From Chryseobacterium ginsenosidimutans (GTDB lineage: Bacteria > Bacteroidota > Bacteroidia > Flavobacteriales > Weeksellaceae), in contig NZ_JAUSXC010000001.1 of assembly GCF_030823405.1 (NCBI RefSeq), positions 620,001-684,000 on the forward strand: a DNA stretch of 64,000 nucleotides, written 5' to 3'. Below, one piece after another: positions 7,741 through 54,013 of this stretch; position 1 is the first letter of the stretch; each line of letters starts with the position of its first letter. Under the pieces are notes generated by a model. That model did no database searches, was not told the origin of the DNA, and saw only the letters and a program-made list of their open reading frames with translations. Both the position numbers and the translations under genes were made by a program.

Positions 7741-8175
7741 TTAGCAAAATGCAATCTTATCAACTCTGTTCTGATGTCTGCCACCTTCAAAATCTGTTGA
7801 GAGAAATTTGTCTACAATTTCGATCGCCAATTCCTTAGATATGAACCTGGCAGGAATTGAAATCATATTGGCATCATTATGTTGTCTTGCCAATGTTGCA
7901 ATCTCCGGCATCCAACAAAGAGCGCAGCGAATCTTCTGATGTTTGTTTGCCGTGATCTGTACACCATTTCCACTTCCGCAGAATAATATTCCCAATTCAT
8001 TCTCACCATTCTCAACAGACGTTGCAGCAGGATGTACAAAGTCCGGATAATCCACACTGTCTGTGGAAAACGTTCCAAAATCCTGAACCTCAAAGTTTTC
8101 TGATAAATAGTTCTTAACAATCTCTTTATACTCGAAGCCTGCATGGTCAGCAGCAATAGCGATTTTTCTTTTCAT
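7741..8175 (-). CDS. rpiB: Ribose-5-phosphate isomerase B
   Basis: This 144-residue enzyme interconverts ribose-5-phosphate and ribulose-5-phosphate in the pentose phosphate pathway. DHAG at residues 10-13 and the CGSGNG loop with catalytic Cys66 identify the RpiB/LacAB family. The frame is open upstream to 8349, but I chose the ATG at 8175 because it gives the standard N-terminus MKRKIAIAADHAGF and the normal family length; the extra upstream residues have no family character and run into the proposed origin region. Confidence 0.94.
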   Translation of the reverse strand: MKRKIAIAADHAGFEYKEIVKNYLSENFEVQDFGTFSTDSVDYPDFVHPAATSVENGENELGILFCGSGNGVQITANKHQKIRCALCWMPEIATLARQHNDANMISIPARFISKELAIEIVDKFLSTDFEGGRHQNRVDKIAFC

Positions 8176-8204
8176 AATTCTTGTATTAAGCTTTTTAGAT
8201 TTAT

Positions 8205-8560
8205 TTTCAACACAAATGTAAGTATAATGTGGATAACTCTTAAATTTTTGCGAATTAATTGTGAAAAGAGATGTTAGTAAATGTGGAAAAATGTTGGAAA
8301 GTAAATCTTTGTTAACATTAAAAATTTTTGTAATGGAAATCGGTTCCAAATTTTTTGCTCACTATTTCAAAAAAGTTGTTGTGGAGAATTCTATACTTTT
8401 TCCATAAATCAGTTATTAATAAATGGAAATGGGGAAAAGTTATCCATAATTGTTAGTAACGAATATAAAAATCATATTTTCAATAGATTATAATGTCTAT
8501 AAATTGTTAATTACATAAAAATTAAATGTGATAAAGTATTTTAATAAAATTTATCCCCGA
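8205..8560. other. Candidate chromosomal replication origin (DnaA-box cluster)
   Basis: This gene-free, very AT-rich segment has one perfect DnaA box in reverse orientation (TGTGGATAA, 8228-8236). It has three one-mismatch boxes: 8282-8290 (TGTGGAAAA), 8380-8388 (TGTGGAGAA) and 8440-8448 (TTATCCATA). Weaker versions lie at 8397-8405 and 8551-8559. An almost pure A/T tract at about 8460-8550 could serve as the unwinding element. Two parS sites lie 3-5 kb to the right. dnaA itself is not in the window, which does not exclude an origin here. The call is inference from box density and parS proximity. Confidence 0.5.
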
Positions 8561-8670
8561 AACTCACAACACTCAACAACAATACCATATTCTTTTTTTT
8601 AATAGAAAAAAAAATTGTTGATAGGTGAATGTTGAGTCTGGGGGAAACTTTTCTGAAAACTTTTATCGGG

Positions 8671-8706
8671 TTGCGGCTTTTCAAAAATTTTAAAATCTTA
8701 CATTTG
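8671..8706 (+). promoter_or_regulatory. Probable pgk promoter
   Basis: TTG (8671-8673) and TACATTTG (8699-8706) match the Bacteroidota -33 (TTG) and -7 (TAnnTTTG) elements, with 25 bases between them. The -7 box ends 24 bases before the pgk ATG. Confidence 0.6.
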
Positions 8707-8730: not shown

Positions 8731-9921
8731 ATGAAAACAATCAATGATTTCAATTTTAATGACAAGAAGGCTCTGGTAAGAGTTGATTTCAATGTTCCAC
8801 AGGACGACCAGCTGAAAGTTACAGATAACACAAGAATTGTTGCGGTAAAACCAACAGTAGATAAAATCCTTAAAGACGGAGGCTCCGTAATCTTAATGGC
8901 TCACTTAGGACGACCAAAAGGAGAGGTAAAAGATGAGTTTTCACTTAAACATATCTTAGAGGAAGTTTCAATGGTATTGGGACAAGAAGTAAAATTCGTT
9001 GAAGAATGCATAGGCGAGAAGGCTGAACAGGCTGCTTCTGAACTTAAGCCTGGAGAGATCCTTTTGTTGGAAAATTTACGTTTTCATAATGAAGAAGAAA
9101 AAGGTGATGAAGCTTTTGCCGAACAACTTTCTAAATTGGCTGATGCTTATGTGAATGATGCTTTCGGAACGGCTCACAGAGCTCATGCTTCTACGGCTGT
9201 AATCGCTAAATTTTTTCCTTCAACTAAATTTTTCGGTTTATTGATGGCTAACGAACTTCAAGCAATTGATAAAGTTTTAAAAAGTGGAGAACGTCCTGTA
9301 ACAGCTATACTTGGTGGATCTAAGGTTTCAACTAAAATTACCATTATAGAAAATATTTTACCGGCTATTGATAATTTGATTATTGGTGGTGGAATGGCAT
9401 TTACATTTATTAAAGCTTTGGGTGGTAAAATCGGAACATCATTAGTAGAAGAAGATAAATTACCTCTTGCTCTTGAAATTTTAGCAAAAGCAAAAGAACA
9501 TAAAGTAAAAGTATATCTTCCGTCTGATACGATCATCGCTGAAAGTTTCAGTAATGATGCAGACAGAAAGGAAGTCGACATTTATGAAATTCCTGAAGGA
9601 TGGATGGGATTGGATGCTGGTGCAAAATCTAGAGATCAGTTTAATGATGTACTTTTAAATTCCAGAACAATTCTTTGGAATGGACCGATCGGAGTTTTCG
9701 AAATGTCAAACTTTGCTGCAGGGACTATTGCTCTTGGTGAAAGTATTGCAGAAGCGACAAGACAGGGAGCTTTCTCTTTAGTTGGAGGAGGAGATAGTGT
9801 TGCTTTTGTAAAACAATTTGGCTACGGTGAAAAAGTAAGCTATGTTTCTACCGGAGGTGGAGCAATGCTTGAAAGTCTGGAAGGTTTAGAACTTCCGGGA
9901 GTTGCTGCAATTAATAATTAA
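8731..9921 (+). CDS. pgk: Phosphoglycerate kinase
   Basis: This is a 396-residue glycolytic enzyme that transfers phosphate between 1,3-bisphosphoglycerate and ADP in the cytoplasm. RVDFNVP at residues 17-23, the substrate-binding HLGRP motif, LGGSKVSTK in the mid-protein, and the C-terminal nucleotide-site GGGDSVA are all present. The length is typical. It stands alone, with its own promoter and a strong terminator, and is the only rightward gene between 1.5 and 19 kb. It is transcribed away from the candidate origin. Confidence 0.97.
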
Positions 9922-11262: not shown

Positions 11263-11284
11263 AAATGTTTCACGTGAAACATTT
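11263..11284. promoter_or_regulatory. parS: parS centromere site 1
   Basis: TGTTTCACGTGAAACA at 11266-11281 is the exact 16-base bacterial parS consensus bound by ParB. The dyad extends to 22 bases with AAA/TTT flanks. It lies just beyond the 3' end of mnmG. parA and parB are not in the window. Confidence 0.92.
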
Positions 11285-13196: not shown

Positions 13197-13218
13197 AAAT
13201 GTTTCACGTGAAACATTT
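13197..13218. promoter_or_regulatory. parS: parS centromere site 2
   Basis: This is a second exact TGTTTCACGTGAAACA (13200-13215) in the same 22-base extended dyad as site 1. It is located about 45 bases upstream of the mnmG start, so ParB binding could also affect mnmG transcription. Confidence 0.92.
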
Positions 13219-53827: not shown

Positions 53828-53828
53828 G

Positions 53829-53903
53829 TGGGCCCTGAGGGATTCGAACCCCCGACCCTCTGGGTGTAAACCAGATGCTCTGAACCAACTGAGCTAAGAG
53901 CCC
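53829..53903 (-). tRNA. tRNA-Val (TAC), copy 1
   Basis: On the minus strand the gene reads GGGCTCTTAGCTCAGTTGGT..., with a D arm, a seven-base anticodon loop TTTACAC (anticodon TAC), a T arm with GGTTCGAATCC and an acceptor stem GGGCTCT/AGGGCCC with one G-T pair. The discriminator is A and CCA is not encoded. It is identical in all 75 bases to the copy at 53939-54013. Confidence 0.95.
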
Positions 53904-53938
53904 TGAAATTTTTTAAAAGGCTTCAGTATCCTTTTTAG

Positions 53939-54013
53939 TGGGCCCTGAGGGATTCGAACCCCCGACCCTCTGGGTGTAAACCAGATGCTCTGAACCAACT
54001 GAGCTAAGAGCCC
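53939..54013 (-). tRNA. tRNA-Val (TAC), copy 2
   Basis: This is identical in sequence to copy 1, 35 bases upstream in the transcript. It has anticodon TAC in a TTTACAC loop and a complete cloverleaf. The pair most likely arises from one precursor starting at the promoter at 54044-54073. Confidence 0.95.

Follow-up and report, generated by a model that had tools for sequence, protein, structure and literature searches.

An origin of replication situated next to dnaA is a common arrangement in other bacteria. Elizabethkingia is a genus related to Chryseobacterium. For Elizabethkingia meningoseptica G4076, Ori-Finder predicted an oriC of 649 bp, in which there are two A/T-rich elements and three DnaA boxes of no more than one mismatch, the predicted oriC being situated at 740.7 kb and dnaA at 2.61 Mb (PMC8994065). 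In the flavobacterial Algorimicrobium, Ori-Finder was used to place the origin, given as mnmG, with GC skew serving as a check (PMC12843772). Among gut bacteria that include two Bacteroidetes, origins were placed using parS clusters and GC skew and not dnaA, with read coverage in agreement (PMC10197239). DnaA-box clusters have also been described outside oriC, namely datA of E. coli and those of Bacillus subtilis and Streptomyces coelicolor (PMC4585315, PMC5835720), and E. coli accumulates DnaA boxes near oriC (PMC12371093); the available portion of PMC7858055 contains nothing on DnaA-box clusters outside or near oriC.

The window analysed here is a stretch of 64,000 bases, corresponding to bases 620,001-684,000 of the single 4,296,724-base contig (4.30 Mb; 99.89% complete) of Chryseobacterium ginsenosidimutans, whose pgk has its closest relatives in Chryseobacterium. 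Its stretch from about position 8,048 to 8,556, comprising 500 bases at and between rpiB and pgk (628.05-628.56 kb of the contig), is very probably the chromosomal origin, oriC. The features of the locus, in positions of the window, are as follows.

7741..8175, minus strand: rpiB, ribose-5-phosphate isomerase B, the left neighbour (NCBIfam TIGR01120, Pfam PF02502)
8048..8056, plus strand: DnaA-like box TAATCCACA, one mismatch, left arm of the inverted pair in rpiB (box scan)
8062..8070, minus strand: DnaA-like box TTTTCCACA, one mismatch, right arm of the same pair (box scan)
8213..8220, minus strand: likely -7 element of the rpiB promoter, TAnnTTTG type (sequence)
8228..8236, minus strand: perfect DnaA box TTATCCACA (box scan and alignment)
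8272..8280, minus strand: box position of the TTATTCACA type, degenerate in the window (alignment)
8282..8290, minus strand: DnaA box TTTTCCACA, one mismatch, the most conserved (scan and alignment)
8380..8388, minus strand: one-mismatch box TTCTCCACA (scan and alignment)
8440..8448, plus strand: DnaA box TTATCCATA, one mismatch (scan and alignment)
8451..8459, minus strand: weak inverted partner of the 8440 box, three mismatches in the window (sequence and alignment)
8462..8550, no strand: A/T-rich tract, candidate DNA unwinding element (composition, 88.8% A+T)
8551..8585, no strand: conserved block starting TTATCCCC (alignment of relatives)
8699..8706, plus strand: TACATTTG, likely the -7 element of the promoter of pgk, strongly conserved (alignment of relatives)
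8731..9921, plus strand: pgk, phosphoglycerate kinase, the right neighbour (Pfam PF00162)
11266..11281, no strand: exact parS (contig search)
11290..13152, minus strand: mnmG (gidA) (NCBIfam TIGR00136)
13200..13215, no strand: exact parS (contig search)

Comparison with the described systems showed both likenesses and differences. The candidate resembles the predicted oriC of E. meningoseptica G4076 in lying far from dnaA; flanking genes, box conservation and parS are not mentioned in the available portion of that account (PMC8994065). It resembles the origin of Algorimicrobium in being near mnmG, but its boxes lie at the rpiB-pgk interval, 2.7-4.6 kb from that gene (PMC12843772, as excerpted). 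Similar to the origins of the gut bacteria, it is marked by a parS cluster together with skew; the arrangement of DnaA boxes is not described for those origins (PMC10197239, in the part available). The naming of mnmG as a neighbour in the preliminary description was upheld by a family model, as were the identities of rpiB and pgk.

Scanning confirmed the earlier observation of one perfect TTATCCACA box and three one-mismatch boxes, all inside one 221-bp piece of the rpiB-pgk gap. Box density was surveyed over 61 stretches of the same genome, the window included (1,260,000 bases). The densest 230-bp window held four boxes at the candidate, seven in stretch L082 (which had been chosen for its perfect boxes) and at most two in each of the other 59 stretches, while a reversed-word control never exceeded two per 230 bp in any of the 61. 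None of 20,000 first-order Markov sequences built from the 555-bp gap gave four boxes. The grouping of boxes at rpiB-pgk exceeds chance. Between 612 and 640 kb of the contig, 18 boxes with at most one mismatch were found, six of them at 628,048-628,448. The adjoining near-pure A/T tract was likewise borne out, with 88.8% A+T at 8462-8550 against a window mean of 66.5%; such a tract is not unique to the locus, one other 90-bp spot of the window being richer and one equal. The gap was found not to be the longest gene-free stretch of the window, as had been proposed, but ranks second when ORFs of at least 60 amino acids are considered and fourth with those of at least 100.

GC skew was then examined for a break in the chromosome. 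Raw skew tracks gene strand, and third codon positions were therefore compared separately for plus and minus strand ORFs, a break model being fitted to third-position skew per gene strand over the 61 stretches (1.26 Mb). The skew minimum was expected near the candidate and was found there: the break fell at 615-634 kb with its best position at 620 kb, and 628.4 kb was 1.3 log-likelihood units below the best. This range corresponds to a drop of 10 log units and is only rough, as the likelihoods assume independent sites. The skew maximum, marking the terminus, was located near 2.77 Mb, half a chromosome from 628.4 kb being 2.777 Mb. Strand-averaged skew (40 stretches) was negative in 16 of 17 stretches on the arc running from 2.9 Mb across zero to 0.6 Mb and positive in 21 of 22 at 0.70-2.72 Mb, the remaining one being undefined as it has no minus strand ORF; the single stretch at 2.8 Mb gave -0.003. 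When the window was divided into four pieces, the three to the right of the candidate were positive in skew, and the piece to the left (620-628.4 kb, with one plus strand gene) gave +0.04, which is the wrong sign for an origin.

Local fits over 400 kb were made for this genome and for genomes G013 and G007. The best position for the own genome was again 620 kb, with the candidate 3.8 units off. In G013, the best position was 424 kb with a broad range (372-443 kb), the candidate at 437.3 kb, just upstream of pgk, being 4.4 units off; in G007, it was 2,498 kb (range 2,476-2,517 kb), with the candidate at 2,484.5 kb being 5.6 units off. The optimum was thus 8-14 kb from the candidate in all three fits. 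In each of the three genomes, the densest box window per 400 kb was situated at rpiB-pgk (four boxes in the own genome, four in G013 and three in G007). The skew of G013 and G007, whose optimum is about 13 kb away, is compatible with an origin at rpiB-pgk.

The same skew data bear on an origin adjoining dnaA. A search of the contig gave a sole DnaA match at 3.249 Mb; with the contig taken as a circle, the shorter arc between this gene and the candidate measures 1.68 Mb. The C-terminal part of this protein carries a signature of the GGKDHSTV type, which is usual for DnaA. As a skew break, 3.249 Mb was 174 log units worse; the 3.5 kb around dnaA contain two one-mismatch boxes only, and the nearest perfect box is 70 kb off. 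An origin at dnaA is ruled out by skew, and we regard it as having next to no likelihood.

A further site to be weighed is at 1,344,203-1,344,611 of the contig (L082:9204-9612), 716 kb (0.72 Mb) from the candidate, where six perfect boxes in 409 bp and four one-mismatch boxes form the densest perfect-box group of the genome, which has 55 perfect boxes in total. This exceeds by far the boxes of the window locus and would be the choice of a predictor based on box counts. As a skew break this site was 262 log units worse than the best, with the terminus refitted; no parS occurs there, just seven of 30 loci have at least three perfect boxes in a 600-bp span on the downstream side of the same gene (the own one included; of the others, one had a single perfect box and 22 had none), and genome G028 has neither a tandem pair nor a triple of perfect boxes. 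The origin is extremely unlikely to be situated here, this position being ruled out by skew.

Two parS sites had been reported to the right of the candidate, and both were found as exact matches at 11266 and 13200, at distances of 2.5 and 4.5 kb from the start of pgk, with no further parS in the whole contig even when one mismatch was allowed. In 14 further genomes of the genus, picked for having few contigs (one to 10), an exact parS was identified downstream of pgk in all 14, at 2.3-7.4 kb from its start (two sites in 13 genomes and one in G080). Among 80 named loci from relatives, 71 contain an exact parS at a distance of 2.1-7.3 kb from the start of pgk; none was found in the other nine, two of which stop some 2 kb beyond that start.

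Comparison with relatives showed rpiB to be upstream of pgk and on the opposite strand in 76 of the 80 named loci. Alignment and box counts cover these 76, with L056, L075, L079 and L080, which lack an rpiB match, being omitted; a box was scored as conserved with at most one mismatch and three bases of slack. The median count over all alignment positions and strands was zero. The boxes proposed from the window sequence were kept in part: that at 8282 was conserved in 64 of the 76 relatives and that at 8440 in 41, and those at 8228 and 8380 were not, being shared with nine and none, respectively. The perfect box is thus a local feature, and the box at 8380 is probably a chance occurrence. Two positions that are weak in the window were found to hold boxes in relatives, at 8272 (32/76) and, in inverted orientation, at about 8451 (21/76). 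On these per-position counts, the conserved core has a tandem of boxes on the left (8272/8282) and an inverted pair on the right (8440/8451), beyond which the A/T tract lies. In a search for a DnaA-trio or basal unwinding motif, a TTGTTAATAA-type sequence was seen by eye in the alignment after the 8440 box; an inverted box is an alternative reading of this sequence.

The gap between rpiB and pgk is below 1 kb in 68 of the 76 loci and above 2 kb in eight, in which roughly 1.6 kb of extra DNA is situated between rpiB and the pgk-side region. In all eight, boxes were still found within 650 bp of pgk, with three or four boxes in seven loci and one in L035. Seven of the 76 loci (L004, L007, L009, L016, L022, L035 and L055) have a gap of 2.2-2.4 kb and carry a reading frame of 487-540 amino acids between rpiB and the pgk-side region. 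Locus L053 has a gap of 2.1 kb, inside which there is no ORF of 80 amino acids.

A different explanation for the boxes is that they are part of the regulatory regions of rpiB and pgk, with the true origin elsewhere in 615-634 kb, for example beside mnmG and parS. Such a position would fit a skew minimum that stays flat for about 20 kb, and in a flavobacterium mnmG is named as the origin that Ori-Finder located (PMC12843772, in the part available). The gap also contains likely promoters of both genes, with their likely -7 elements at 8213..8220 and 8699..8706, and the perfect box at 8228 would overlap that of rpiB. Against this, no other group of at least three boxes was found in 612-640 kb, the box region stays beside pgk in all eight loci from which rpiB has moved away, and the conserved boxes and A/T tract sit between the two likely promoters. 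We consider the control-region explanation improbable, and the identification of the rpiB-pgk stretch as oriC, which the preliminary description had drawn, is supported by the skew minimum with the terminus opposite, by the interval and boxes being kept in relatives and by the nearby parS sites. The box cluster lies in a short non-coding region with an A/T-rich element, judged by composition only, beside it.

Further sequence elements were observed around the locus and in the window. Within 8551-8650, a conserved TTATCCCC...ACTCAACAACAA is followed by a T-run, an A-run and an inverted TTGTTGA...TGTTGAG; this conserved block is unaccounted for by the origin boxes. Folded as RNA, the inverted repeat beyond the A/T tract (8560-8660) was unremarkable (z -1.14). 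A search of the whole window with Rfam at gathering scores gave two tRNAs only, both of them tRNA-Val (TAC) genes, which are arranged in tandem at 53828-54013 and score equally.

The inverted box pair at 8048/8062 lies within rpiB, at codons 36-43. Codon usage at this pair was compared among the loci: the codons TTT TCC ACA were present in 36 of 50 loci retaining the amino acids FST, and AGT GTG GAT TAT in 43 of 75 retaining SVDY. Elsewhere in these rpiB genes, TCC and AGT make up 10% and 8% of serine codons, ACA 31% of threonine codons and GTG 16% of valine codons. Among the 68 loci with a gap below 1 kb, both rpiB boxes were found in 42, one in eight and none in 18; among the eight displaced loci (gap above 2 kb), none has both boxes, two have one and six have none, these displacement counts not being independent events due to kinship among the loci. 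The same eight amino acids were kept at the pair in five of the eight displaced loci. When the 123 three-codon windows of rpiB were ranked by a synonymous-codon score, the SVD window was fourth (4.1) and the FST window ninth (3.0), serine scores being inflated because the two serine codon families are not interconvertible in one step; the best windows of the control genes pgk and mnmG scored 3.85 and 5.0. The strongest synonymous codon bias in rpiB is at codons 66-70 (CGSGN), with scores of up to 6.3; it lies away from the boxes. Together, the codon and displacement data provide moderate evidence that the origin extends into rpiB, with the pair favoured by synonymous codon choice. The extent first given for the candidate, 8205-8560, is very probably right as to the locus, and its left edge should probably be shifted to about 8,048 so as to take in the rpiB box pair.

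With the rpiB-pgk stretch as oriC, initiation can be outlined as follows. DnaA, whose gene would be 1.68 Mb distant on a circular contig, is predicted to load on the inverted pair 8048/8062, on the left box 8282 and on the right box 8440 with its weak partner at 8451. It would then melt the A/T tract at 8462-8550, letting helicase load, after which two forks would leave in opposite directions. The newly made origins would be organised by ParB, bound at the two parS sites that lie 2.5 and 4.5 kb from the start of pgk.

The perfect-box array at 1.344 Mb fills the gap between the ends of a gene for a redoxin-like protein and a gene for an AraC-type regulator, which are convergent, so that its boxes are upstream of neither gene. 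Arrays of perfect boxes were identified in other genomes also. Tandem perfect boxes three bases apart were found in 24 of 98 genomes, including 22 of 58 other genomes of the genus; the own genome has none, and the reversed control gave none in the 98. With a spacing of at most 30 bases, tandem perfect pairs were found in 40 of 59 genomes of the genus, again with none in the own genome, and in none of the 59 with the reversed control. The lack of a tandem pair in the own genome is due to its boxes being mostly inverted. The 9-mer is exact even where, as is often the case, the spacers vary, a pattern that speaks for selection on the box and against a simple repeat. In genome G087, of another family in the same order, rows of six and seven perfect boxes with identical TCA spacers were observed (C1:163957-164025 and C4:41782-41862).

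The gene context of 21 array loci with flanking ORFs was inspected, these being L082 and 20 stretches picked from box-array matches (for L175, a denser box group was counted instead of the pair that led there). Nine were situated between convergent genes, ten between genes of the same direction and none between divergent genes, with one having no left ORF in the stretch and one being inside an ORF; several gene neighbourhoods recur among the 21. How far tandem pairs lie from the start of pgk was compared in 14 genomes, circular contigs being assumed. Pairs were found at 0.54-0.83 Mb in G002, G007, G013, G020, G025 and G080, at 1.1-1.9 Mb in G002, G003, G013, G020 and G025, and on contigs other than that of pgk in G022 and G026, while among these 14 genomes no tandem pair was present in G010, G028, G031, G032 and G035. 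G028, which is fully listed, is without a triple of perfect boxes, so that the arrays are not indispensable.

The 1.344-Mb array is similar to the clusters of E. coli (datA), B. subtilis and S. coelicolor in being a non-coding box cluster outside oriC (PMC4585315, PMC5835720, available portions). As in datA, consensus boxes are dense at a site outside oriC, and by skew this site is not an origin. E. coli datA keeps its relative distance from oriC, whereas the arrays of Chryseobacterium vary in place and presence (PMC4585315, as excerpted). A fixed relative distance was not found here, tandem pairs being situated at 0.54-1.9 Mb in seven genomes and in several neighbourhoods. The 1.344-Mb array was not assigned as datA, since its position and presence vary between genomes.

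The distant box arrays may act as sinks that titrate DnaA. Tentatively, and with rather less than even confidence, an initiator-titration system of Bacteroidota could be envisaged, in which the origin has a small number of boxes, most of them imperfect and two held in rpiB by synonymous choice, and is paired with relocating high-affinity arrays that soak up DnaA. At the level of titles and listings, no recognisable report of an rpiB-pgk origin or of box arrays in Bacteroidota was found. An origin away from dnaA is already known from other bacteria, and the noteworthy part here is the boxes in rpiB together with the distant arrays.

The findings tie a named gene interval to the likely origin in a large environmental genus, with dnaA being misleading as an origin marker here. 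With the origin at rpiB-pgk, dnaA need not be the reference for genome numbering, for chromosome maps or for estimating growth rates from read depth. The findings also lead to testable claims, namely that a coding gene carries origin boxes under synonymous constraint and that distant arrays could titrate DnaA.
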